Shown piece by piece: positions 2,348 through 28,023 of a stretch of 58,587 nucleotides of DNA; position 1 is the first letter of the stretch; every line of letters starts with the position of its first letter. The translations under genes and the position numbers were made by a program. This DNA is from Williamsia sp. 1135. GTDB lineage: Bacteria > Actinomycetota > Actinomycetes > Mycobacteriales > Mycobacteriaceae. The stretch lies in NCBI RefSeq assembly GCF_002095395.1, contig NZ_MJEI01000071.1, positions 1 to 58,587 of the forward strand, in the 5' to 3' direction. The notes beneath the pieces are model-generated. The model was not told the origin of the DNA. It made no database searches and saw only the letters and a program-made list of their open reading frames with translations.

Positions 2348-3238
2348 ATGACACACCACAGCGCTGACAACAGGGACGACACAACATCGCCGGGCGTGGC
2401 ACCGGCCACATCATGGACAACCGTTGCGAATCAGACGATCTCGGTCGACGGCACCGACTTCGTTTACCGCGCCTACGGGCCGGCCGAAGGAATCCCGGTG
2501 GTGTTCCTGAACCACCTCGGTGCCACCCTGGACAACTGGGATCCACGCGTCGTCGATGGCATCGCCGCGAAACATCGCGTGGTCGTCATCGACAACCGGG
2601 GCGTCGGCGGTTCGGGCGGTACGACGCCGGCAACCATCGAGGAGATGGCCCACGACGCGACCGCCGTCATCGACGCCCTCGGGCTCGAGACGGTTGACCT
2701 GCTCGGCTTCTCGATGGGCGGATTCATCGCGCAGGTCATCGCCGCCGAGCGCCCCGCGCTGGTCCGCAGAATCATCCTCGCCGGTACCGGCCCGGCCGGC
2801 AGTGAAGGTATCGACAAGGTCACCCGGGTGACCTACGCGGACTCGATCACAGCCGTGCTGACGCGTAAAGACCCCAAGCAGAACCTCTTCTTCACCCGCA
2901 CCGCCCACGGCAAAGCGCAGTCGCGGGAGTTCATCGCCCGTTTGGGTGAACGGACAACCCACCGCGACAAGAAGATCTCGCTGCGAGCCTTCCGCACTCA
3001 GCTTCGCGCGATCCACAGCTGGGGCGCCGCGGCACCGGCCGACTTGAGCGTGATCACCCACCCTGTGCTGGTTGCCAACGGCGAAGACGATCGGATGGTG
3101 CCGACCAGCAATTCCCACGACCTGGCCCGCCGGCTGCCGAACGCCACCCTGCGCATCTACCTCGACGCCGGGCACGGCGGCATCTTCCAGGCACACGACC
3201 AATTCGTTTCCGCCGCACTGGAGTTCCTGGCGGCCTAG
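2348..3238 (+). CDS. Alpha/beta fold hydrolase
   Basis: A 296-residue alpha/beta hydrolase. The ATG at 2348 is chosen over upstream in-frame codons because a GGAAGG ribosome site sits just before it and upstream codons would cross the operators. The nucleophile elbow is GFSMGG with Ser122. The acid is probably Asp247 or Asp248 (NGEDDRMV) and the base His276 (DAGHGGIF). The oxyanion region is FLNHLGATLDNWDPR. The first about 25 residues are low-complexity and polar, with no signal peptide. It is the first gene of a three-gene operon with a close paralogue and a quinone oxidoreductase. The family includes esterases, C-C hydrolases and haloperoxidase-like enzymes; the substrate is unknown. Confidence 0.88.
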   Translation: MTHHSADNRDDTTSPGVAPATSWTTVANQTISVDGTDFVYRAYGPAEGIPVVFLNHLGATLDNWDPRVVDGIAAKHRVVVIDNRGVGGSGGTTPATIEEMAHDATAVIDALGLETVDLLGFSMGGFIAQVIAAERPALVRRIILAGTGPAGSEGIDKVTRVTYADSITAVLTRKDPKQNLFFTRTAHGKAQSREFIARLGERTTHRDKKISLRAFRTQLRAIHSWGAAAPADLSVITHPVLVANGEDDRMVPTSNSHDLARRLPNATLRIYLDAGHGGIFQAHDQFVSAALEFLAA

Positions 3239-3316
3239 CCACACCGCGCTCCTGCCATTCTCGCCGCACTCCCCTGCTGCTGCGGACCTGCACCCGACCT
3301 CTGAGGAAGTTCACCT

Positions 3317-4162
3317 GTGACCGACTGGAAGAACGCACCAACCAAGAACATCGACGTCAATGGCGTCCGCTTTGTCTATCGCGACCTCGGCCCCACCGGC
3401 GGTGTGCCGGTGGTGTTCCTGCACCACTTCACCGCAACCCTGGACGATTGGGATCCCCGGGTGATCGACGGCGTCGCCGGCAAACACCGGGTCATCGCCT
3501 TCGACAACCGTGGGGTCGGTGGATCCGGATCGAAAGTTCCCGCCACCATCGACGACATGGCCTCGGACGCCATCGTTTTCATCCGCGCCCTTGGTGTGAA
3601 CAAGGTCGACCTGTTCGGTTTCTCCCTTGGCGGTGGTGTCGCTCAGGTCATTGCGCTCGAGGCCCCCGACCTCGTGCGCAAGATTGTGCTGGCAGGCACC
3701 GGACCGCGTGGTGGCGGCGGCATCGACAAGATGGCCACCATCGTCGGCGGCGCCTACCTCAAAGCGGCCCTCACCCGGAAAGATGCCCGCAACTACCTGT
3801 TCTTTCCACGTACCCCCGACGGCAAACGAGCGGCCGCAGCGTATTTCGACCGGCTTGCCGAACGCACCACCGACCGCGACACCACCATCTCCCTGCAGGC
3901 ACGCCTCGCCCAGCTGCGGGCCATCATCGCCGGCGGCAAAGCTGCACCCGATGACCTGACCGCAATTACCCACCCGGTCCTGGTGGCCAACGGCGATCAC
4001 GATGTGATGGTCGCCAGTGAACACTCGGTGGACCTGGCCAACCGACTGCCCCACGCGAAAGTCGTGATCTACCCCGACTCCGGCCACGGGGGCGTCTTCC
4101 AGCACTACCGCGAGTTCGTACCCGAAGTCCTCGAGTTCCTCGACGGCCCCGACAACACCTGA
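3317..4162 (+). CDS. Alpha/beta fold hydrolase, paralogue of the preceding gene
   Basis: A 281-residue alpha/beta hydrolase starting at a GTG behind GAGGAAG. The nucleophile is Ser103 in GFSLGG; the acid and base are in NGDHDVMV and DSGHGGVF. Long stretches match the upstream gene almost position by position (ATLDDWDPRVIDG, KHRV, DNRGVGGSG, PATI), so the pair is a tandem duplication. It lacks the polar N-terminal extension of its partner. Retention of both copies suggests different substrates or a heteromer; the sequence cannot decide between these. It lies in the TetR-controlled operon, 37 bp before the oxidoreductase. Confidence 0.88.
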   Translation: MTDWKNAPTKNIDVNGVRFVYRDLGPTGGVPVVFLHHFTATLDDWDPRVIDGVAGKHRVIAFDNRGVGGSGSKVPATIDDMASDAIVFIRALGVNKVDLFGFSLGGGVAQVIALEAPDLVRKIVLAGTGPRGGGGIDKMATIVGGAYLKAALTRKDARNYLFFPRTPDGKRAAAAYFDRLAERTTDRDTTISLQARLAQLRAIIAGGKAAPDDLTAITHPVLVANGDHDVMVASEHSVDLANRLPHAKVVIYPDSGHGGVFQHYREFVPEVLEFLDGPDNT

Positions 4163-4199
4163 CCCCGTTCATCGAACAAACTCGAGAAAGAAGAATCCG

Positions 4200-5198
4200 G
4201 TGAAAGCGTTCGTCATCGACAAATACAACGGCCCGATTCACGCCGCCGAGGTACCCACACCCACGGTCGGACCGCGCGACATCTACGTCAAAGTAATTGC
4301 CGCCAGCGTGAACCCACTCGATCAACTGGTCCGCAGTGGCGAGTTCAAACAACTCCTCAAATACCCGATGCCCATGATCCTCGGACACGACGTGTCCGGC
4401 GTCGTGACCGACATCGGCCCCGAGGTCACCGACTTCGCCATCGGCGACGAGATCTATGCCCGACCCCGCGACCTGAGAATCGGAACGTTCGCCGAATACA
4501 TCGCGATCCACCAGGACGATGCAGCCCATAAACCGAAGACACTCTCGCTCTCCGAAGCGGCTGCGGTCCCCCTGGTCGCCCTGGCGGCGTGGCAGATGCT
4601 CGTCGAGAAGGCCCACATCAGGCCCGGCCAGAAGGTCCTCGTCCATGCCGGCGCCGGCGGTCTGGGGTCGACCGTGATCCAGTTGGCCAAACACTTGGGT
4701 GCGCACGTGGCCACCACCGCCGGAAGCGCGTCGACGGACCTGGTCACCAACTTGGGCGCCGACGTCGTGATCGACTATCGCACCACCGATTTCGCCGACG
4801 TGCTCTCGGGCTACGACCTCGCCGTCGATGCCGTCGGCGGCGACAACCTCCTGAAAACCCTGACCGTCCTCGCACCCGGAGGCCTCGCCATCGGCGTCGC
4901 CGGCCCACCCGACGCCGGATTTGCCACCCAACTCGGCGCCCCCGCACCCTTCAAACTCATCCTGTCCCTGCTCAGCCGAAAGGTCCGGGCAGCAGCAAAG
5001 AAGCGCGGCGTGCGGTACTCGTTCTTCTTCATGCGATCCAGCGGAGAGCAACTCCGCACTCTGGCCGCACTCTACGACGCCTGTCACCTACGCCCCGTCA
5101 TCGACTCCACGTTCCCGTTCGACAAGACCGTCGAAGCACTCGCCTACGTCGAAGCCGGTAAGACGAAAGCCGGGAAAGTTGTCATCACCCACAACTGA
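4200..5198 (+). CDS. NADP-dependent quinone oxidoreductase-like protein, MDR family
   Basis: A 332-residue medium-chain dehydrogenase/reductase starting at GTG after GAGAAAGAAG. The N-terminal GroES-like domain contains GHDVSGVVTDIGPEVTDFAIGD. The Rossmann fold follows with the glycine motif AGAGGLGSTVIQLAKHLGA. The cysteines and histidines of the zinc-binding alcohol dehydrogenases are absent, so it belongs to the zinc-free quinone oxidoreductase/enoyl reductase group. Such enzymes reduce quinones or activated double bonds with NADPH. It is the last gene of the TetR-controlled operon. The pairing with two hydrolases suggests detoxification or catabolism of an ester or enone; that is inference. 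Confidence 0.87.
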   Translation: MKAFVIDKYNGPIHAAEVPTPTVGPRDIYVKVIAASVNPLDQLVRSGEFKQLLKYPMPMILGHDVSGVVTDIGPEVTDFAIGDEIYARPRDLRIGTFAEYIAIHQDDAAHKPKTLSLSEAAAVPLVALAAWQMLVEKAHIRPGQKVLVHAGAGGLGSTVIQLAKHLGAHVATTAGSASTDLVTNLGADVVIDYRTTDFADVLSGYDLAVDAVGGDNLLKTLTVLAPGGLAIGVAGPPDAGFATQLGAPAPFKLILSLLSRKVRAAAKKRGVRYSFFFMRSSGEQLRTLAALYDACHLRPVIDSTFPFDKTVEALAYVEAGKTKAGKVVITHN

Positions 5199-16859: not shown

Positions 16860-19523
16860 TCAGTTCGTGCCGTACACCCGAGCCAGGTCGACCCGTGACC
16901 GGATCCCCAGCTTGGCGTATACATGCGTCAGGTGATACTGGACCGTCTTTGCTGACACAAACAGCTCCGAGGCCACCTCGCGGTTCGAAAAGCCCTGGCA
17001 GACAAGCCTGGTCACAGCCTCCTCCTGGGGCGTGAGGCTGATGTCGCCGCGGGGCAGCTTGGCGTTGACGCCGCCCGCGCGGAGCTCACGCTCGCAGCGC
17101 TCCACCAGTGTGGTCGCCCCGAGGGACTGATAGATGTCGCGTGCGGCCGCCAGCACCGGATCGGCCTCTCCGCGCTTGCCCGCTCGTCGCAGGGTCTGCC
17201 CGTAGGCGAAGTTCACGCGGGCCAGATCGTATCGCAGCGGCAGCCCGTCGAGCAGCGACAGTGAACGCTCGAAGGATCGTCGGGCACCGACCAGATCGCC
17301 TGTCGCGCCGAGCAATCTGCCGCGCGCGTAGCCGAGCCGCGCCTGGGTGGATCGATGGCCCATCTCGTCGGCAACCAATTCTTGAGACTGCAGGAACTCC
17401 TCGGCGGCATCAAGTTTGCCGTCCACAACCAGTGCGTTGGCGAGTATGTCCGCCCACGGCCAGAATCCGGGGTGTCTCAAAGACGTGGTCGACGCCATCT
17501 TGCGGACTGCGTCGAGCGCTCTGACCACGGCGCCGTAGTCGGCGGACGCTTCGGCTATGTGTGCTCGCGCGAAGAACACCGGCGCGCGCATGATCTCGTA
17601 GTCTTGGGTCACGGCGCTCGCTCTCTGCACCGCTGCGTCGGCGTCCTGCCACGTGCCTCGAAGTGCGCCGATCTGTGCGACGGTCCACTCCAAGAGCGGC
17701 GTCGCCAACACGATCCCACTGGACTCCGCAAGCACACGACCGGCAGCCACGGTCCGCAGAGCTTGATCCCAGTCACCGGTGAGGAACTGCACACGTCCGA
17801 GCCACCCGTACGCCCACAATGTGATTCGCGCTGACCCTCCCAGGTGCGCGGTGGCCACCGCCGTCTCCAGTGTGCTCCTGGCCCCGTCGAGATCATCCTG
17901 GGCCAGCTGTAGCCACCCGCGCCCCAGAGTCACCCGCTGAGCCTGGACTCCGTGGTGCACCCGTTCGGAAAGGCTCGCATACGCCTCGGCGGCCAGATCA
18001 GGCCGGCCGGACGAGCCCAGACCGAGACCACGTATGGCGGCGGCCTCGATACCCGCCGGCGAGTCGTAGTCTGCGAGCTCCAGCGCTCTGTCGGCCCATT
18101 CAACCAATTCTGCACTCCGGCAACGACTCAATGAATGCAGGACGAACCGTTGAGCGATCAGCGCCGCCGAATCGGGATCGGATTCGGGATCGACGATGTC
18201 CCAGGCACGACCCAGACGGAGTTCCGCCTCGGCGGCGCGACCGCGAACGATTGCGAGGTACGCGAGAACGGCGTCCCGCAGCGGTGTCTCCCGCAATGCC
18301 TCGAGGGCTGGAACCAAGGCGAGCGCACTCGTGACGTCGCCGGCTGCGACCAGCGAATCCGCTGTGCGGATGAGCCTCTGATCACGCAGCACTGAATCGA
18401 GCGAGAGGCGACTCGCTTCCTGGAAGAGCCCAGCCGCCTCGGCCCAGGCCCCACCGGCACCACGTTCTCGGGCCAGCGCTTCGACTTCGTCAGCAAGTTC
18501 GGCGTCGGGCATCGGAGTCGCACTGACACGGTGGATCAAGCTGCGTCCACGGTCGATCACGATTTCGGCGGCGCGTTGGTGCGCTTCCCCGGCGGCGTGC
18601 GCGCCCATCAGTTCCACCAGCGCAACGCGCGTCATCGAATCAATCAGATCCACCTCGTAGATCCGCCCGGGTTCGAGCGACCGGGTCACCAGACGGGCCG
18701 CGGAAGCCTCATCGATCGCAGCCAGTGGAGATGTCAGATCTGCCAGTTGCGCGGCTTCGGTGAGCGAGCCTTCCTCACCGAGGATGGCCAAGGCCATCGC
18801 CAATGCCTGTCCCTGCGCACCGCACCGCGACAACCGCTCGCGGACGTCTGCAACAACATGCCTCGGTGCCGGCAGCGACGACCCCGGTGTCGTCCACACC
18901 GAGTCCGAGACTTCGTCAAGCAACGCGACCACGTGTCCCGGGCTCCCTCCCGTGTGATCGGTGAGGGCCTGAGCGACGGCCGGATGCAATGTGTACCCGT
19001 GATTCCCGGCGAGTTCGGCGACACCAGAGACCGCCAACCCAGACATCACAATGACCTCCGACGCGAGCGTCGTAGCAGCAGAGTCGGCATCTCCCACGGT
19101 GAGCACCACCAGCAGTGGTAGACCCCGATGGTGGCGCACCGCGGACACCAGCGCGTGGAGCGAGGTTTCATCGGCGAACTCGGCATCCTCGATCACGATG
19201 AGACGGACGCCGCCCGTGCCGTCCTCGAACTCCAGGTGATCAAGAATCTGGTCGGCGACAATTATCGGCGAGCCGGGCAGATCCTGCTGAAACAGCTGGT
19301 GGAGAACAGCGCCAGGGGTTTCCGTTTCCCATGATGCGCAGCGCGCCCGCCACACGGGTCCCTTGTGATGCTCGGCGAGACATCGCACGACCGAGCTCTT
19401 CCCAATGCCCGGCTCGCCCGTCACGGCCACGATCGTGGCGTCACCGGTCCCGGCGTCCGACAGGTGCCCGGCGAGCGCGGCGAGTTCGCCTTCTCGTCCG
19501 ACACACACCGTCGCCGATCTCAT
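16860..19523 (-). CDS. benR: LuxR family (LAL-type) ATP-binding regulator, probable BenR
   Basis: An 887-residue regulator of the large ATP-binding LuxR type. Walker A is GEPGIGKSS at residues 36-44 and a Walker B-like RLIVIEDAEFAD follows near residue 110. The middle is a helical repeat region rich in Ala/Leu (tetratricopeptide-like). The C-terminal LuxR helix-turn-helix is LTPQEEAVTRLVCQGFSNRE, VASELFVSAKTVQYHLTHVY, AKLGIRSRVDLARVYG. It follows benCD by 40 bp on the same strand. In Corynebacterium glutamicum a LuxR-type gene named benR lies directly after benABCD, so the same role is likely here. It is the leading candidate to bind the three shared 23-bp sequences upstream of the ben genes. 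Confidence 0.85.
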   Translation of the reverse strand: MRSATVCVGREGELAALAGHLSDAGTGDATIVAVTGEPGIGKSSVVRCLAEHHKGPVWRARCASWETETPGAVLHQLFQQDLPGSPIIVADQILDHLEFEDGTGGVRLIVIEDAEFADETSLHALVSAVRHHRGLPLLVVLTVGDADSAATTLASEVIVMSGLAVSGVAELAGNHGYTLHPAVAQALTDHTGGSPGHVVALLDEVSDSVWTTPGSSLPAPRHVVADVRERLSRCGAQGQALAMALAILGEEGSLTEAAQLADLTSPLAAIDEASAARLVTRSLEPGRIYEVDLIDSMTRVALVELMGAHAAGEAHQRAAEIVIDRGRSLIHRVSATPMPDAELADEVEALARERGAGGAWAEAAGLFQEASRLSLDSVLRDQRLIRTADSLVAAGDVTSALALVPALEALRETPLRDAVLAYLAIVRGRAAEAELRLGRAWDIVDPESDPDSAALIAQRFVLHSLSRCRSAELVEWADRALELADYDSPAGIEAAAIRGLGLGSSGRPDLAAEAYASLSERVHHGVQAQRVTLGRGWLQLAQDDLDGARSTLETAVATAHLGGSARITLWAYGWLGRVQFLTGDWDQALRTVAAGRVLAESSGIVLATPLLEWTVAQIGALRGTWQDADAAVQRASAVTQDYEIMRAPVFFARAHIAEASADYGAVVRALDAVRKMASTTSLRHPGFWPWADILANALVVDGKLDAAEEFLQSQELVADEMGHRSTQARLGYARGRLLGATGDLVGARRSFERSLSLLDGLPLRYDLARVNFAYGQTLRRAGKRGEADPVLAAARDIYQSLGATTLVERCERELRAGGVNAKLPRGDISLTPQEEAVTRLVCQGFSNREVASELFVSAKTVQYHLTHVYAKLGIRSRVDLARVYGTN

Positions 19524-19563: not shown

Positions 19564-22293
19564 TCAGCCCAGATCACCGCCCGCGACCGGCAACACCGTC
19601 CCGGTCAGGTACGACGCCTCTGGCGAGGCCAGGAAGCAGATCGGCGCTGCCTGCTCGTCGAGGGTGCCGTACCGGTGCATCAGCGACGACGAGAGCGTTT
19701 GGTCGATGTGCGCCTGAAACCAGCCTTGCTCGGTGCTGTCCTGCGGCTCCGGCGTACCGCGCGAAATACGCCGCGGAGGCGCCTCCGTCCCACCCGGCGC
19801 CGTCGCGACCACGCGGATTCCGGCATCGGCGTACTCCATGGCGAGCGACGCTGTGATGGCGTTGATGCCACCTTTGGCCGCGGAGTACGGGATCCGGTTG
19901 ATGCCCCGGGTGGCGGCCGACGATACGTTGACGATGACGCCTTCTCCCCGTTCCACCATCGACGGTAGCGCCGCCCGGCAGGCGTACAGCGTCGTGAACA
20001 GCGACCGATCGATCTCGGCTCGAATCTCGGCGTCCGTGAACTCGATGAACGGTTTGAAATTGATCGCGCCGCCCACGTTGTTGATCAGGACGTCGATTCG
20101 TCCGAATGCCGACAAAGCCCCCTGGACAAGGTTGTCCGCGCCCTCCCAGTGTTCAAGATCTGTTGTGACAGGACAGGTTTCGGGGCCGTTGACAGATAGT
20201 TCGTCGGCCAACTCCTTGACGATCTCGGAACGGTCGGCAACCACGAGTTTGCCACCCTCGGCGCTGATCCGACGGGCAATGCGCTCGCCGATGCCCTGCG
20301 CCGCTCCCGTGACGACAACGACTTTGCCGGCGAATCTACCGGGTGTCACAAATCGCGGCGCCTGCGCGGCCAGATTGTCCGCCATCGCGCGCCGCATCGT
20401 CTCCTTCGAGCGATCGGCATGCGCGACGATCAGCGAACGAGCTTCGTTGCGGTCCCCCGCCTCGAACGCCGAGACGATGTCCATGTGGTCCTGTGCGCAC
20501 AGCGGGTGACACCATGTCGCGTTCCGGAGAACCTCACTCATCCGCCCCTTCACACCCAGCGCCGTATATGCCTGCAGCAGATGCTGATTGCCGGTAAGTG
20601 TGAACAGGTAGTCGTGGAACGCGGCATTGGTCTCTGTGTACTCCGCCGCGTTCACGAAATGATCGTCTTCGACGTGTGGCAGCGTCGACTCGGCGAGCAA
20701 CCGGTATCCGGCGAGTTGTCTGCTGTTCAGCCGTCCAAGGGTCACTTCGAGAGCGCCCAGCTCCAAGGCCCGCCGCGCTTCGAAGATCGCGTCAGATTCG
20801 TGCACGGCCGGATGATCCTCGCCGATCTCGTAGCCACCGTCGCCGACGGTGATCGGTGCCGGCTCAACAGACGTGGCCGGTGCCGCCGGGGTGGCTTCGG
20901 CAGCTGGCGCTGCAGGGTCGACGGCTTCGACTGCCGGGAACACCGTTTGTCCAGCGATGGTGCGAGCCCCGGTATCGGGACCGGAGACGAGGCCCGAATC
21001 CGGATCAACCGAGGCTGGGGACTTCTCGTCGCCGCCGGCGAACCGCGGTGAAACCAGCTGCCCGGCGATACGCCGAACCACGTCGCCGTGATCGGAGACC
21101 GTGACCGACTTCGGCCAGGCCTCGAGAGTCGAAACGTGCAGCACTTCCTGGCCCGCGATCGCCCGGGCATCAGGAGACAACAGCAATTCTTCCACCATCT
21201 CCGGTCCGGAATCGGCCGCCGGTGCCGCCGACGCCGCATCGGGCGAACCGGGCGCTGCCGCGAGGGCGAACTTCTCGTAGTAGAACCCGGTCGGGTCGAT
21301 ACCGGAGTCCTTGACGTGCCCCCGGACCGATTCGACCATCGGCGGAGGGCCGCAGAGGTACATGGCCACATCGCCATCGTGGAGATGCTCCGGCTTCATC
21401 AGACTCATCACGTAGCCCTTGTTGACCGCAGTGGTCGCAGAGTCGGAGACGCAGTGATCCCAGGTGAAACCACTGAGCGTCGAAGCGAGTTCGTCGAGTT
21501 CTGCGGTTTCGACCAGGTCGTCGTCTGTGCTGACCCCATAGATCAGGTGGGCAGTGCGCTCACTTCCCTCGCGGCGGAGCTTGCGCAGCATCGAGAGGAT
21601 CGGCGCCAAACCGGTTCCGCCGGCGAGCAGCAGCACCGGCCGATCGGCTTCGCGCAGGAAGAACGATCCGTGGGGGCCGGTGAACGTCAGTGCGTCACCG
21701 ACTTCCGCCCGCTCGGTCAGGTAGTCCGACATGGCGCCACCGGAATTGAGCTTGACGAGGAAGGTCAGCCGCTCCTCGTGTGGGCCGTTGCTGAACGAGT
21801 ACGAGCGCTTGACATCGGTTCCAGGCACCGAGACGTTCACGTACTGGCCAGGCAAGAACACCAGGTCGGACCGGTTGGGGATCTCGACGCCGAACCGCAC
21901 TGTGGTCGGCGAAATCCTCTCCAGCTCCGTAAGTTTTCCGGAGAACGTAGCGGCCTCGGTCTTGGCGATGGCTGACGTTGCAGCGATCTGCAGCACGAGG
22001 TCGGACCGCGGCTTCATGCTGCAGGGCAGGCTGTACCCCGCTGCTGCCTCATCGTCGGACAGTGCATCGGACAGGTACGTGCCACCGTCGAAATCGCCCG
22101 ATTCGCAGAGCGCCTTGCACGTTCCGCACGCCCCGTCGCGGCAGTCGAGCGGAATGTTGATCCGCTGACGGTAGGCCGCGTCCGCGACCGTCTGATCGGT
22201 ACGGCAGTTGATGAAACGGGTGACGCCGTCTTCGAACGAGAGGGCGACCTGGTGACCGCCCGTGTCGGCGGGTGCCTCCTGGGTGGTTGTCAT
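19564..22293 (-). CDS. benCD: BenC-FCD-BenD fusion: benzoate dioxygenase reductase, FCD domain, and benzoate cis-diol dehydrogenase
   Basis: A single 909-residue reading frame with three parts. Residues 1-340 are a full BenC: plant-type 2Fe-2S ligands Cys51, Cys56, Cys59 and Cys91, FAD motif RSYS (163-166), NAD part GGTGLAP (225-231) and CGPPPM (314-319). Residues 345-495 are an Ala/Pro-rich linker with three R-x-IAGQ-x-V repeats. Residues about 500-640 match the FCD effector domain of GntR regulators (FEARRALELGALEVTLGRL, NAAFHDYLFTLTGNQHL, His603, His625) without any DNA-binding part. Residues 655-909 are a full BenD-like SDR: TGAAQGIG (662-669), NNVGG, Tyr803-x3-Lys807. Electron transfer to BenAB and oxidation of the diol to catechol would sit in one chain. 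The start ATG follows GAAGGG. No internal stop or frameshift is seen. Confidence 0.9.
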   Translation of the reverse strand: MTTTQEAPADTGGHQVALSFEDGVTRFINCRTDQTVADAAYRQRINIPLDCRDGACGTCKALCESGDFDGGTYLSDALSDDEAAAGYSLPCSMKPRSDLVLQIAATSAIAKTEAATFSGKLTELERISPTTVRFGVEIPNRSDLVFLPGQYVNVSVPGTDVKRSYSFSNGPHEERLTFLVKLNSGGAMSDYLTERAEVGDALTFTGPHGSFFLREADRPVLLLAGGTGLAPILSMLRKLRREGSERTAHLIYGVSTDDDLVETAELDELASTLSGFTWDHCVSDSATTAVNKGYVMSLMKPEHLHDGDVAMYLCGPPPMVESVRGHVKDSGIDPTGFYYEKFALAAAPGSPDAASAAPAADSGPEMVEELLLSPDARAIAGQEVLHVSTLEAWPKSVTVSDHGDVVRRIAGQLVSPRFAGGDEKSPASVDPDSGLVSGPDTGARTIAGQTVFPAVEAVDPAAPAAEATPAAPATSVEPAPITVGDGGYEIGEDHPAVHESDAIFEARRALELGALEVTLGRLNSRQLAGYRLLAESTLPHVEDDHFVNAAEYTETNAAFHDYLFTLTGNQHLLQAYTALGVKGRMSEVLRNATWCHPLCAQDHMDIVSAFEAGDRNEARSLIVAHADRSKETMRRAMADNLAAQAPRFVTPGRFAGKVVVVTGAAQGIGERIARRISAEGGKLVVADRSEIVKELADELSVNGPETCPVTTDLEHWEGADNLVQGALSAFGRIDVLINNVGGAINFKPFIEFTDAEIRAEIDRSLFTTLYACRAALPSMVERGEGVIVNVSSAATRGINRIPYSAAKGGINAITASLAMEYADAGIRVVATAPGGTEAPPRRISRGTPEPQDSTEQGWFQAHIDQTLSSSLMHRYGTLDEQAAPICFLASPEASYLTGTVLPVAGGDLG

Positions 22294-22304: not shown

Positions 22305-22820
22305 TCAGAAGTGGTAGATGTCCACCACGTGGTGGATGTAGTCGTTCTTCAACACGATCGTCTTGCGCCGGATGAGAGGCTGCTCCCCCGAGAAGTCGAT
22401 CGTGTAGAAGGACGTCCCGTAGTAGGGGTCGACGGTCTTGTAGCGGAAATACATGGTGTGCCAATTGAATCGGACGTCGACCAGGTCTCCGCGGCGTTCG
22501 ATCACCTCGACGTTGCTGATGTTGTGACTCGTGCGCGGCTCGGGAAGCGACGTCGCCGAGGAACGCTCAGTCCGGATCCGGAAGACACGATCTTCCAGCC
22601 CACCCTTGTTGCCGTAGTAGATCAGGGAGATGTCGCGTTGCGGATCCTCGACGAGCAGGTCGGCGTCGTCCCACGACGGCATCCAGTAGACGACGTCGTC
22701 GGCGTAACACTCCAGCCACGTCTCGAACTCACGGTCATCGAGATACCGGGCCTCGCGGTACAAGAACTGCTCGATCGCATTCTGCGTGATCAGGGTGCTG
22801 GAGGTTTCGGTGGTGGTCAT
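22305..22820 (-). CDS. benB: Benzoate 1,2-dioxygenase small (beta) subunit
   Basis: A 171-residue beta subunit of a ring-hydroxylating dioxygenase: FLYREARYLDDREFETWLEC, ADDVVYWMPSW, LIYYGNKGGLEDRVFRIRT, SHNISNVEV and the C-terminal LIRRKTIVLKNDYI. It makes the structural part of the alpha3beta3 dioxygenase that turns benzoate into its cis-1,2-diol. The ATG at 22820 is chosen since it stands 7 bases after GGAGG; an earlier ATG six bases upstream overlaps the benA stop (ATGA) and would place the ribosome site too close. The overlap indicates translational coupling to benA. It is followed 11 bp later by the benCD start. Confidence 0.93.
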   Translation of the reverse strand: MTTTETSSTLITQNAIEQFLYREARYLDDREFETWLECYADDVVYWMPSWDDADLLVEDPQRDISLIYYGNKGGLEDRVFRIRTERSSATSLPEPRTSHNISNVEVIERRGDLVDVRFNWHTMYFRYKTVDPYYGTSFYTIDFSGEQPLIRRKTIVLKNDYIHHVVDIYHF

Positions 22821-22822
22821 GA

Positions 22823-24238
22823 TCATGCCTCCTTCGTGGCTGTGCCATTGCGAGACGCGACACCGTCGGATTCGACGAGACGTTCGTTGTCGAGGGCGGT
22901 GTGCATGGCCGAGAGCCAGTAGCCGTGTTGCACCGGGTACAGACCCTCGTCTTCGTTCTTGAGCCCGGACGAGATCACGCCGTCCATACCCAGGGACTCC
23001 GCGACAGGATCGGGTCCGTTCTTCCAGTGCTCGGCGCCGCGACTCATGTCGTTCCATGGCGAGGCCTGGGCGCGGAAGGTGAGCTGGCAGGACCGGAACT
23101 CCTCGAGGTCGTCGGGGGTGGCCATGCCGGAGGCGTTGAAGAAGTCCTCGTACTGCCGGATCCGATGAGACCGGGCCGCGTCGCTTTCGCCTTTGGGGGC
23201 GATGCAGTAGATGGTGACCTCGGTCTTGTCGGGTGCGATGGGCCGGAAGTGTCGTATCTGCGTGGAGAATTGGTCCATCAGGTACACGTTCGGGTACAGG
23301 CAGAGATTTCGGGAGCCCTTGACCATGAACTCGCCCTTGGCATCTCCGTGCTGCTTCTTGAGCTCATCCATCTGGTCCCACAGCGGACGGTCCTGAGGGT
23401 TGGCCGCCCAGGTCCACAGGCACAGGTGCCCATTCGGGTACGACCAATAGCCACCACCGGATTTGCCCCAGCCGCCGGCGTCGAGCGCCTTGGTGTCGTT
23501 CTTCGACTCCCCCGTGCCACGACGGGACGTGGTCGCCGCGTAGTTCCAGTGGACCGCGCTGACGTGGTAGCCGTCGGCGCCGTTCTCCGCCTGCACCTTC
23601 CAGTTCCCGTCGAAGGTGTAAGTCGACGACCCACGCAGGACCTCTAGGCCCTCGGGCGACTGATCGACGAGCATGTCGATGACCTTGATGGTGTCGCCGA
23701 GGTGCTCGTCGAGTGTGAGCACGTCGGGGTTCAGGCTGCCGAACAGGAAACCGCGGTAGCTGTCGAACCGCGCGACCTTCGTCAAATTGTGAGATCCGTT
23801 GACGTCGAACGTGTCCGGGTACCCGGCATCGTCCGGGTCTTTGACTTTCAATAGGGTGCCGTCGTTGCGGAAGGTCCAGCCGTGGAACGGGCAGGTCAGC
23901 GTCATCCGGTTGTCGGTCTTGCGTCTACACAGCATGGCGCCGCGATGTGCGCAGGCGTTGATCAGGCAGTGGATCTCGCCGTCTTTGGCGCGGGTGATCA
24001 CGACCGGCTGCCTACCGATGTAGGTCGTGAAGTAGTCCCCTGGGTTGGGGAGCTGACTCTCGTGAGCCAGGTAGATCCAGTTGCCCTCGAAGATGTGCTT
24101 CATCTCCAGTTCGAAGACGTCTTCGTCGGTGAAGATCCGACGGTTCGCGCGGAAGATCCCGGCGTCGTGGTCGTCGATGACGGCGTCGGACAGAACCGTC
24201 GCAATGTGGCCGAGATTGTCAGCGGTGGGTGCGCTCAT
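22823..24238 (-). CDS. benA: Benzoate 1,2-dioxygenase large (alpha) subunit
   Basis: A 471-residue Rieske non-haem iron oxygenase. The Rieske ligands are Cys96-x-His98 and Cys116-x2-His119 ([22 protein letters not shown]). The mononuclear iron site is in the [19 protein letters not shown] region with the conserved Asp and two His. Sequence features such as [16 protein letters not shown] and the length fit the benzoate/toluate branch. It adds both atoms of O2 to benzoate with electrons from the reductase part of the fused benCD product. The start ATG follows AGGAGG. Its promoter region, right after benK, carries one copy of the shared 23-bp operator-like sequence. Confidence 0.94.
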
Positions 24239-24318: not shown

Positions 24319-24341
24319 GTCACACTAGGCATATGCCTAGT
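24319..24341. promoter_or_regulatory. Putative ben operator upstream of benA
   Basis: GTCAC followed by ACTAGG-CATATG-CCTAGT. The last 18 bp form a perfect palindrome (24324-24341). It overlaps the benK stop codon and ends about 80 bp before the benA start. It matches the site upstream of benK at 18 of 23 positions. A further short inverted repeat TGCCA-gat-TGGCA lies just downstream towards benA. Confidence 0.7.
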
Positions 24342-25692
24342 CACTACCCAGGGGGGTCAGCGAGGGCCTGACCTGGCCCGCTGCGTCAGTGACCACGGTG
24401 TTCTCAGCCCTCCTCGGCACCAGCATGGTGACGCCGGCGCCGACCAGCGCGACCCCGGCAAATATGTAGAAGGCACTTGCCGAGCTGATCCCGGCGCCCT
24501 GGAGCAACCCTCCGATCATCGGACCGACGATGCCGCCGAGACGTCCGAAACCGGCACACCAGGCCACACCGGCAGCCCGCGCGTTCGTCGGGTAGTAGTT
24601 CGAGACGTATCCGTAGATCAGCACCTGCGTGCCGATCGTTCCCGTGCCCGCTACGGCAACGGCCGCGAGCAGGATCGGCAAGGGAAATCCGAGGGTCAAG
24701 CAGATCAGAGCAAATGTCGCCAGGCAAAAGCTGGTGGCCACCACGCGTTGCGGACCACGCTTGTCGGCAAGCCGGGATGCGATGAGGCCGCCCACGATGG
24801 CGCCGCCATTGAGGACGAGCAGAAACGCGAGCGAACCCTTCGCGTTGAACCCTGCGTTCTTCATGATCTGCGGCAACCAGGTGTTGAGGCCGTAAGTCAG
24901 CAACAGACCCGAGAAGCTCATCACCCCGAGCAGGGCAGTCGGCTTGATGTACGTCCTGGTCGCCAACTCCGCGAAGCCGACCTTATCGGCATCCGGCGCG
25001 ACGGCCGTGTCCTCGGGGAACGGAATACCCGTTGCGGCGCAGACTTTTCGCGCATCGTCCACGCGTCCTCGGGAGATCAACCAGCGAGGCGATTCCGGCA
25101 TCTTGCGCATCGCCAGCGGGAGTAGAAGGACGAGCGGCAGCGCGCCGATCCAGAACAGACCACGCCAGCCGATGTGATCTTCCAGCAAAATCGCGAGGGT
25201 CGCGGCGAGCACGCCGCCGACGGGGATTCCGCTGTAGACAATGGCGTTGTACAGGTTCCGCTTTCCCGGCGGAGCGAACTCGGCGATCATGGCGCCAACC
25301 GTGGCGACCAGTCCGCCGACTCCGATGCCGGTCAAGAAGCGCAGCACGCCGAACGACACGATGCTCTGCGCAGTCGCCGTCACCGCCATACCGATCGAGA
25401 ACCACACGATGTTGATGAGCATCATCCGACGTCGGCCGATGCGGTCTCCGAAGGCTCCAGCTGCGAGGGCTCCGACCATCACACCGACGAGCGCGTACGA
25501 TCCGAGCGCCCCGGCCGTTCCCGGGTTCAGAGCGCCCAGTTGCGTCGGATCGTCGAGCAGGGTTGGCAGTACGGTGCCGTAGACGACCAGGTCGTATCCG
25601 TCGAAGACGATGGCGGCTGTGGCGAGGGCGACGATCCACAGAACACTCTTGCGGTGCTCCGGTCCGGACCAGGTCGGTGGTGAGGTCGTCAT
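24337..25692 (-). CDS. benK: Benzoate MFS transporter (aromatic acid:H+ symporter)
   Basis: A 451-residue major facilitator protein with about 12 membrane helices. The first helix has the aromatic-acid symporter motif FDGYDLVVYG with its Asp, and the loop between helices 2 and 3 reads GDRIGRRRMM. The middle loop carries PESPRWLISRGRVDDARKV. It belongs to the AAHS/BenK/PcaK group that imports benzoate with protons at the cytoplasmic membrane. It is transcribed towards benA and ends 98 bp before it. A copy of the shared operator lies 56 bp upstream of its start, between it and the divergent doxX gene. Confidence 0.9.
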   Translation of the reverse strand: MTTSPPTWSGPEHRKSVLWIVALATAAIVFDGYDLVVYGTVLPTLLDDPTQLGALNPGTAGALGSYALVGVMVGALAAGAFGDRIGRRRMMLINIVWFSIGMAVTATAQSIVSFGVLRFLTGIGVGGLVATVGAMIAEFAPPGKRNLYNAIVYSGIPVGGVLAATLAILLEDHIGWRGLFWIGALPLVLLLPLAMRKMPESPRWLISRGRVDDARKVCAATGIPFPEDTAVAPDADKVGFAELATRTYIKPTALLGVMSFSGLLLTYGLNTWLPQIMKNAGFNAKGSLAFLLVLNGGAIVGGLIASRLADKRGPQRVVATSFCLATFALICLTLGFPLPILLAAVAVAGTGTIGTQVLIYGYVSNYYPTNARAAGVAWCAGFGRLGGIVGPMIGGLLQGAGISSASAFYIFAGVALVGAGVTMLVPRRAENTVVTDAAGQVRPSLTPLGSD

Positions 25693-26751: not shown

Positions 26752-28023
26752 ATGAGCTCCACTGAAGCTGAACTTCGCCCCACAGCAGGCGGATTCGAGC
26801 GTCCGGCGCAACGACCGCCAAGTCGTCGGCAGCTGGCCGCCGATTTCGGCGGCCGATACGTCGGGGCGGGCGCGACCGGTGTGCTGTTCTCCGCCACCGG
26901 ACCCGTCGCGGTGATAATGGGTGCGGCGTCGGCCGGTTCTCTGACCGCGTCCCAGACGGCATCGTGGATCTTCGGCGTCTTCGTTCTCAACGGGCTTCTG
27001 ACGATCGTCGCGAGCTGGGTGTACCGGCTACCGCTGAGCTTTTTCTGGACAATCCCCGGCACTGTTCTCGTGGGTCAGGCACTGGGGTCGTTGACGTGGC
27101 CCGAGGTGGTCGGTGCCTACATCGCGACCGGCATCCTGATGACTGTCCTCGGGGCGACTGGCCTGGTCGCGAGACTCATGGCCCTGATCCCCCACCGCGT
27201 CGTGATGGCGATGGTCGCCGGGGCGTTTCTCTCTTTCGGAACCGGCCTGGTCCGCGCTGTCACCTCTGACGTTCTTGTCGCCGGACTGATGGTTGTGGCA
27301 TGGCTGCTGGTGACGAGATCCTCCGCGTTGGCGGCCAGAGTCCCCGCGGTGCTCATCGCGCTTGTCGTCGGTCTCGGCGCGTTGGCAGCGACCGGCGGAT
27401 TCGAACCACTCGGGGCGGCGGCGGCGTCGCTACCGCTGGTCGCCGCTCCAGAATTCGTTGCACCGGTGTGGAGTTGGCCGGCGTGCGCACAGCTGGTGGT
27501 TCCGCTGTCGATCACCGTCATCGCTGTGCAGAACGGGCAGGGCGCCGCCGTCTTGACTGCCGCGGGTCACCACCCACCGATGAAGGTGGTCACGGTCCTG
27601 TGCGGTGTCTGGTCGGTGCTCGCGGCTCCCCTGGGCGCGATCTCCACATGTTTGGCCGGGCCGACCAACGCCCTGCTCACCGCGGTCGGCGAACGGCACC
27701 GCCAGTACACAGCAGGGATCACGTGCGGTGTCCTGGCCATCGGCGTCGGATTGAGTGCCCCGATGTTGGTCAGGCTGCTCACCGTTGTGCCAATGAGTTT
27801 CGTCGCGGCACTGGCCGGACTGGCGATGCTCGAAGCCCTGCGCGGGGCCTTCGTCGGAGCATTCAGGGACTCACCAGAGGACACATCGAAACGTCCACCG
27901 CTGGGCCCGCTGATCACACTGCTGGTGACGATTTCGAGTATTCAGGTCGCAGGGCTCGGCGCCCCCTTCTGGGGGCTGGTCGCCGGAGTTGTCGTCACCC
28001 GGTTGCTCGACGACCGCGGTTGA
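26752..28023 (+). CDS. benE: BenE family benzoate/H+ symporter
   Basis: A 423-residue membrane protein of the BenE family: FSATGPVAVIMGAASAGSLT, WIFGVFVLNGLLTIVASWVY, FFWTIPGTVLVGQALGSLTW, AVQNGQGAAVLTAAGHHPPM and AISTCLAGPTNALLTAVGER, with about 11-12 hydrophobic segments. BenE-type carriers import benzoate by proton symport, giving this cluster two unrelated uptake systems (BenK and BenE). It is read opposite to the benKABCD genes and converges with the enoyl-CoA hydratase gene. The ribosome site is weak (no clear AGGAG before ATG). The 5' region carries the third copy of the ben operator. Confidence 0.9.
   Translation: MSSTEAELRPTAGGFERPAQRPPSRRQLAADFGGRYVGAGATGVLFSATGPVAVIMGAASAGSLTASQTASWIFGVFVLNGLLTIVASWVYRLPLSFFWTIPGTVLVGQALGSLTWPEVVGAYIATGILMTVLGATGLVARLMALIPHRVVMAMVAGAFLSFGTGLVRAVTSDVLVAGLMVVAWLLVTRSSALAARVPAVLIALVVGLGALAATGGFEPLGAAAASLPLVAAPEFVAPVWSWPACAQLVVPLSITVIAVQNGQGAAVLTAAGHHPPMKVVTVLCGVWSVLAAPLGAISTCLAGPTNALLTAVGERHRQYTAGITCGVLAIGVGLSAPMLVRLLTVVPMSFVAALAGLAMLEALRGAFVGAFRDSPEDTSKRPPLGPLITLLVTISSIQVAGLGAPFWGLVAGVVVTRLLDDRG

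Follow-up and report, generated by a model that had tools for sequence, protein, structure and literature searches.

The window analysed here, a stretch of 58,587 nucleotides from Williamsia sp. 1135 (contig NZ_MJEI01000071.1), carries on its minus strand a single gene in which the benzoate dioxygenase reductase BenC, an FCD domain and the cis-diol dehydrogenase BenD are joined in one polypeptide of 909 residues. Judged by its family matches and conserved residues, the product is almost certainly a bifunctional BenC-BenD enzyme. We propose that it serves benzoate 1,2-dioxygenase as a trifunctional auxiliary protein, gated by its FCD domain, closed with respect to nicotinamide adenine dinucleotide (NAD(H)) and docked through repeated linker motifs, a reading to which we give slightly less than an even chance. 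The architecture as such was already published in 2019 for Gordonia alkanivorans (PMC6362181, in part). New here, at the level of sequence comparison, are a single clade of fusions together with five Paraburkholderia records of a BenC-FCD-P450 protein; an FCD with the lowest ratio of nonsynonymous to synonymous substitution rates (dN/dS) of the three domains and with invariant Asn556, His560, His603 and His625; and a near-fixed FCD-BenD junction next to a hypervariable, motif-bearing BenC tether.

The fusion protein

The frame starts at an ATG (22293) and runs to a stop codon at 19564-19566 with zero internal stops; on the plus strand of 19564-22293 stops are present. An earlier note on this DNA had described one frame of 909 codons joining BenC, FCD and BenD, giving no strand, and we confirm it on the minus strand. 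Residues 14-343 match the BenC equivalog of NCBIfam (NF040810; 474.4 bits, cut-off 430) and residues 653-909 the BenD equivalog (NF040811; 408.2 bits, cut-off 380). Between the two enzymes lies a Pfam match to FCD (PF07729; E 1e-12, 49 bits, cut-off 24.3) at residues 503-627.

Conservation was assessed in 94 distinct intact fusions of 812-989 residues, with starts chosen by script and with proteins identical beyond residue 20 merged. The reductase ligands are complete, as the earlier note had stated: Cys51, Cys56, Cys59 and Cys91 of the iron-sulphur domain and Arg163, Tyr165 and Ser166 of the FAD-binding domain are kept in 94/94, as is Cys314 of the CGPPPM motif for NAD. The short-chain dehydrogenase is complete as well, with a Pfam adh_short match at residues 657-839 and an invariant catalytic triad of Ser791, Tyr803 and Lys807 (94/94). 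Also invariant (94/94) is Asp687, located close to where the second strand of BenD ends; an aspartate there is a usual mark of NAD preference, and its invariance fits NAD use by BenD. The FCD comes without a DNA-binding part, again in agreement with the earlier note. No winged helix was found in the fusion by Pfam at E up to 1, so that the N-terminal winged helix of a GntR/FadR regulator is missing; the region before the FCD is mostly predicted with a local distance difference test score (pLDDT) under 65.

An assembly or frameshift artefact is rejected on the strength of the 94 distinct intact proteins of the same design. A longer frame of 966 codons, started by TTG, is rejected too: its extension runs into benB, and alignments to the nearest relatives begin at the ATG. 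The genome holds no second near copy, the next best matches having 32% identity to the BenC part and 33% to the BenD part. The full-length model has a mean pLDDT of 80.8, with well predicted domains, a poorly predicted linker and a predicted template modelling score (pTM) of 0.50. Its best structural match is BenC (PDB 1krh, 48% identity), a 337-residue chain without FCD or BenD.

Distribution and phylogeny

The earlier note had proposed to map the spread of proteins with the domain order Fer2-FAD-NAD-FCD-SDR. Searches for relatives of the fusion show the design to be widespread in actinobacteria, and yielded the 94 distinct proteins described above. All 80 loci taken from named genomes have the three parts in one open frame; they are the best 80 of 175 encoding a relative, a choice that favours fusions. 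By record title these 80 belong to Williamsia, Gordonia, Mycolicibacterium, Mycolicibacter, Nocardia, Aldersonia, Antrihabitans, Tsukamurella, Saccharopolyspora, Amycolatopsis, Prauserella, Pseudonocardia, Nocardioides, Flexivirga, Arsenicicoccus, Modestobacter and Streptomyces. RefSeq labels the Tsukamurella fusion merely BenC.

Within the window's family, 60 of 201 sampled genomes match at E<=1e-90, and among the matches listed 31 of these 60 have both enzymes in one frame, which the other 29 do not show. Eighteen of the 29 loci were fetched. Fourteen encode BenC followed by FCD, with BenD separate, and four have an FCD-less frame, one of which (L052) runs off the end of its contig and is not counted as an FCD loss. 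Since the FCD stays on BenC when BenD is separate, BenC is the more constant partner. Of 249 genomes of the window's order, 21 match at E<=1e-85; 19 are fused, and the remaining two have a split without FCD (G765) or the BenD half only (G783). A phylum-wide search matched 4 of 396 genomes, too few for a distribution map, among them G208 with BenC and BenD in separate frames. Viral contigs searched for the fusion gave zero matches.

The same kind of reductase and FCD are also found with another enzyme. Five records from Paraburkholderia plasmids (L168:4984-7773, L169:2984-5773 and L170-L172) encode a 929-residue protein, matched over its full length and analysed by Pfam in one case, in which a BenC-like reductase, an FCD and a cytochrome P450 follow one another; one is named BenC in RefSeq. 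As in the fusion, the FCD of WP_310819464.1 and the four other records stands after the reductase and before a partner enzyme, with all four metal residues (see below) kept in 5/5, but the partner is the P450 and, by eye, the linkers are short. BenAB genes are absent among the features annotated around the Paraburkholderia FT54 copy. Separately, L155:1480-2643 (minus strand), from a genome of the order, encodes a flavin reductase fused to a weak GntR winged helix and then an FCD, and lies next to an amidohydrolase-like gene; by eye, two of the three metal histidines of this FCD are replaced.

Quick trees were made of the separate domains, that of BenC comprising 71 rows including 40 fusions. 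The 40 fusions form a single branch (support 99) and the five Paraburkholderia reductases another (support 100), while eight FCD-less proteobacterial BenC stand apart from all FCD-bearing reductases (support 94). Four actinobacterial reductases grouped as FCD-less, L052 included, fall among the FCD-bearing ones. A single branch of fusions is also recovered in the trees of FCD (support 96) and BenD (62).

The FCD domain

The candidate metal-site residues Asn556, His560, His603 and His625 are where the earlier note had placed them, and all four are present in 94/94 fusions. In the unfused BenC-FCD proteins the three histidines are kept in 14/14 and the asparagine in 12/14, with threonine in the other two. 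The Ps5454 regulator binds Ni through Asn144, His148, His192 and His214 (PMC7674646, in part), and the spacing of the residues is 4/43/22 in the fusion and 4/44/22 in Ps5454. CitO has been modelled with Asn147-His191-His213 (PMC4746285, in part). Because Ps5454 uses an identical set of residues with almost identical spacing, Asn556 is a normal ligand, and a degenerate FCD owing to Asn556 is rejected.

Structure prediction, another check that the earlier note had proposed, gave a confident FCD model (pLDDT 90.5) with the fold of FCD effector domains. A fold search returned 266 PDB matches, six of them at E<=0.001 and all of these DhdR; the 50 listed of the 266 are regulators of the GntR family or FCD domains of such regulators, and the Ps5454 structure 3c7j has a template modelling (TM) score of 0.70 by query length. 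For the predicted model, the fold search settles the all-helical FCD effector fold. In a PDB sequence search the FCD alone found one chance-like match and its profile weak matches. The FCD domains of GntR regulators (Ps5454 3c7j, Tm0439, DgoR, DhdR) share the fold, and the Asn/His/His/His set is as in Ps5454; unlike that of the fusion they sit behind a winged helix, and they have 12-24% identity to it in the fold search.

Substitution rates indicate that the FCD is under selection. Compared with five Williamsia-type relatives, its dN/dS is below that of both enzyme domains every time (0.025-0.055, against 0.040-0.125 for BenC and 0.060-0.110 for BenD), with dS near saturation in the more distant pairs; linker codons outside the repeated motif give 0.22-0.45. 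Mean pairwise identity among the 94 fusions is 0.750 for FCD, 0.748 for BenD, 0.719 for BenC and 0.307 for the linker. That the FCD binds a metal plus a pathway acid seems to us fairly probable.

The tether and its repeated motif

The distance from the end of the FCD (Ala636) to the first BenD motif is 25 residues in 80 of the 94 fusions and 22-30 in the other 14. The span from BenC to FCD is 75-250 residues, with a median of 154. In the 14 unfused proteins the linker between BenC and FCD has 37-58 residues in nine and 158-223, with other repeats, in five. L045-L048 and L053, unfused BenC-FCD proteins of one genus (g4, tentatively Dietzia), have a different linker repeat, approximately IAARPVGYTPP.

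The tether of the fusions carries one to four copies of a motif that approximates AR.[IV]AGQ.[VM][FL]P. Its core pattern, which was derived from the same linkers in which it was counted, has 206 matches in the 94 linkers, with at least one in 88; 20 shuffles gave a mean of 3.25 and a maximum of 7. For all three copies in the window the prediction gives the same small hairpin, with low confidence. Neither this motif nor the near-fixed FCD-BenD junction figured in the earlier note, and both are added here. In the window's genome, a motif profile found only the three copies of the fusion below E 0.265. Across the 201 family genomes, 39/39 matches at E<=1e-3 lie inside the fusion. The 27 weaker matches, with E from 1e-3 to 1e-2, divide into 13 inside the fusion and 14 outside; 27 of the 31 fused family genomes have a match in the fusion at E<=0.01. 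The motif codons have a dN/dS of 0.06-0.17 in four comparisons, based on 21-27 synonymous sites, and an undefined value in the fifth. Three weak matches (E 0.0016-0.0084) at G125:C1:844271, G137:C2:214952 and G167:C3:3961983, all in genus g30, fall in frames of 578-613 residues; they may stem from one shared protein or may be due to chance.

In four Mycolicibacter proteins the fourth position of the motif is Ile, Leu or Val in 11/11 matched copies. Elsewhere this position is Ala in 178 of 208 copies, with Val and Met once each. The change looks as if one partner site had changed. Columns altered only in these four number 21 in BenA, nine in the fusion and six in BenB, and four of the nine in the fusion are at residues 38-55, around the iron-sulphur cluster, a pattern that suggests docking of the motif on BenA. 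Whether the linker motifs are docking sites we regard as evenly balanced.

Proposed mechanism and alternatives

For each benzoate, BenC consumes one NADH, and for each diol oxidised BenD yields one. In the mechanism that we propose, BenC would pass electrons from NADH to the BenAB oxygenase, and BenD would oxidise the resulting cis-diol to catechol and return NADH. Because BenC spends one NADH and BenD makes one, a single polypeptide would close the NAD(H) cycle, with the net reaction benzoate + O2 -> catechol + CO2. Such recycling is probably the gain from the fusion. The FCD would bind a pathway carboxylate (benzoate or the diol) via the metal and switch the reductase between idle and active states, which would limit futile NADH oxidation. 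The linker motifs would anchor the assembly on a single partner, with BenAB as the likeliest candidate.

The closest demonstrated case of such gating, and the reason for favouring a metal-dependent carboxylate switch, is AbHpaC, the reductase of 4-hydroxyphenylacetate 3-hydroxylase from Acinetobacter baumannii. When substrate binds to its C-terminal MarR domain, self-inhibition is lifted and flavin reduction increases by a factor of 30 or more (PMC10816480, in part). Both proteins are reductases of an aromatic oxygenase carrying an effector domain of a regulator family. They differ in that the effector is a C-terminal MarR domain in AbHpaC and an FCD in the fusion, which has no MarR domain of the AbHpaC type; AbHpaC is also flavin-diffusing and has no dehydrogenase, and gating is demonstrated in AbHpaC and inferred in the fusion. 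The suggestion of the earlier note that the FCD senses an acid and tunes electron flow fits the complete metal site (94/94), the FCD fold, the strong conservation, the presence of FCD on BenC when BenD is separate and the AbHpaC precedent; its remark on Asn556 at an Asp position does not point to a defect, Asn being a documented ligand variant. On balance, gating of the reductase by the FCD is a tentative proposal, rather less probable than its failure.

Several observations weigh against the proposed mechanism. With its pTM of 0.50 the full-length model gives no domain contacts, and in the fusion the FCD adjoins BenD, not BenC, which fits a role for BenD as well. Three unfused operons (L049, L050 and L051) are without FCD and have no room for one between benC and benD. 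L181 (G765; 2751-4720) encodes a 386-residue BenC that ends in one motif copy, with no FCD and with BenD in another frame. In L182 (G783; 3523-4851), which may be a decayed locus, the frame starts at the very end of BenC and continues with three motifs and BenD, again with no FCD. The motif can accordingly persist without FCD, and because these five loci lack it the FCD probably tunes the reaction rather than performs it. Metal is not universal in FCD proteins, as FadR has no metal site (source seen in part). In the two closest dN/dS comparisons dN is similar across the domains and FCD dS is higher, the FCD having the lowest dN in the other three. The Mycolicibacter pattern comes from one clade of four and does not distinguish docking from a BenA that has changed in general. 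In the FCD tree, finally, the FCD of the flavin reductase falls beside the P450-linked FCDs (support 80, on a very long branch). For this reason, a history in which FCD joined BenC once, BenD was fused on later, also once, and FCD was lost several times is described only as compatible with the trees.

The alternative that survives best is that the FCD is purely structural, dimerising the BenC-BenD chain or stiffening the BenD assembly, with a structural metal. FCD domains pair in regulators, and both the near-fixed length of the FCD-BenD junction and the dispensability of the FCD at five loci would suit such a role; the FCD is, however, at least as constrained as both enzymes. Furthermore, 13 of the 41 positions that are invariant in both benzoate FCD classes, including Met585 and Trp594, differ in some or all P450-linked FCDs while the metal residues stay, as would be expected if the ligand differs by pathway. 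We consider a purely structural FCD somewhat unlikely. A second possibility is that the FCD serves BenD by holding the unstable cis-diol carboxylate beside the dehydrogenase, thereby channelling the diol and limiting its loss. The short junction to BenD and the long tether to BenC would be in keeping with this, as would citrate, galactonate and other acids being FCD effectors (sources seen in part), but the 14 unfused proteins carry the FCD on BenC and not on BenD, and five records have it on a P450 chain without BenD, which makes channelling distinctly unlikely.

As for the linker motifs, short repeated motifs in a disordered region can serve as tags, and a single encapsulin gene is present in the genome (PF04454, 313 bits, G000:C20:84575-85327), so that they might mark the protein as cargo for an encapsulin or microcompartment shell. 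If the tag were shared, other cargo proteins should bear it, and the motif profile matches nothing else in the genome below its E of 0.265; the genome also has zero matches to PF00936, the bacterial microcompartment (BMC) shell family. With the motif confined to the fusion at good E-values and no PF00936 shell protein, a general cargo tag is disfavoured, and we hold the idea to be very improbable. Least probable of all is a trigger-type enzyme whose FCD still acts in transcription control: the relatives of the FCD are GntR regulators, but there is no winged helix, and the window, Tsukamurella and L181 each have a separate large regulator after the operon.

A bolder version of the gated, NAD(H)-closed and docked protein, which we regard as improbable, is a substrate-gated, cofactor-closed machine. 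BenD cores with rigid FCD sensors would carry BenC on long arms, the AR.IAGQ.VFP hairpins would be clipped onto BenAB, and NADH made by BenD would go to BenC only when the FCD reports benzoate. If so, FCD would serve oxygenase reductases in general as an add-on switch, and would do so with a P450 and with flavin reductases as well.

Gating by the FCD, if true, would be a second case, beside the MarR domain of AbHpaC, of a regulator's sensing domain turned into a switch on the electron supply of an oxygenase. The protein would also be a natural fusion that pairs the NADH-using and the NADH-making step of one pathway, and the fusion may make the benzoate step self-sufficient in cofactor and responsive to substrate. 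The occurrence of the module in three settings (fused to BenD, with separate BenD and with a P450) makes the idea testable and useful for building self-sufficient oxygenases. It would explain, too, the extra C-terminal part of a Rhodococcus reductase. Haddad, Eby and Neidle are said to have found in 2001 that BopZ of Rhodococcus sp. 19070 carries some 200 additional residues at its C-terminus that resemble no known protein, a part that their study reportedly left unassigned.

Relation to previous descriptions

In Gordonia alkanivorans YC-RL2, benC and benD were described as "fused together" with an FCD "characteristic of GntR regulatory proteins" (PMC6362181). This is the same architecture, with a LuxR-type regulator downstream; in the part of the source that was available, the account is an annotation remark without distribution, metal site, linker motif or mechanism. 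The benC of Rhodococcus sp. TG-1 is annotated as "FCD domain-containing protein" (PMC11858498, in part). There, BenC is followed by FCD as in the 14 of 18 unfused operons, and BenD is a separate gene, unlike in the fusion. The literature covered, which was partial and mostly at listing level, yielded no paper that deals with what the FCD does in the fusion.

Genomic context

Table 1. Coordinates of the fusion gene, its parts and neighbouring genes in the window.
Feature	Position	Strand	Basis
benC-FCD-benD fusion gene, 909 aa	19564..22293	-	Pfam, NCBIfam, 94 distinct intact homologues
[2Fe-2S] ferredoxin domain, residues 21-95	22009..22233	-	Pfam Fer2; Cys51/56/59/91 kept 94/94
FAD-binding domain, residues 119-211	21661..21939	-	Pfam FAD_binding_6; Arg163/Tyr165/Ser166 kept 94/94
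NAD-binding domain, residues 222-324	21322..21630	-	Pfam NAD_binding_1
Hypervariable, largely unstructured tether, residues 344-490	20824..21264	-	Alignment and model
Linker motif copy 1, ARAIAGQEVL, residues 376-385	21139..21168	-	
Linker motif copy 2, RRIAGQLVSP, residues 407-416	21046..21075	-	
Linker motif copy 3, ARTIAGQTVFP, residues 443-453	20935..20967	-	
FCD domain, Pfam stretch 503-627, seven-helix model	20413..20787	-	Pfam and predicted structure
Putative metal-site residues Asn556, His560	20614..20628	-	Residue conservation; role from Ps5454 literature
Putative metal-site residue His603	20485..20487	-	Residue conservation; role from Ps5454 literature
Putative metal-site residue His625	20419..20421	-	Residue conservation; role from Ps5454 literature
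BenD short-chain dehydrogenase, residues 653-909	19567..20337	-	Pfam, NCBIfam; Ser791, Tyr803, Lys807, Asp687 kept 94/94
benB, oxygenase small subunit	22305..22823	-	TIGR03232, 271.5 bits, cut-off 225.55
benA, oxygenase large subunit	22823..24238	-	TIGR03229, 793.8 bits, cut-off 780.95
887-aa protein, LuxR-type C-terminus, N-terminal ATPase motif by eye	16860..19523	-	42.8 bits to NF041830, far below cut-off
Aromatic-acid major facilitator superfamily (MFS) transporter, BenK-like	24337..25692	-	Below NCBIfam cut-offs

The fusion gene lies in a ben operon (Table 1), 11 bases separating the stop codon of benB from its ATG. The 887-residue LuxR-type protein encoded just downstream of the fusion is a probable ben regulator; a large regulator also follows the operon in Tsukamurella, and a similar protein is present in L181. 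Near the operon, on the other strand, a BenE-family benzoate transporter is encoded at 26752-28023 of the window (183 bits, under the cut-off of 203).

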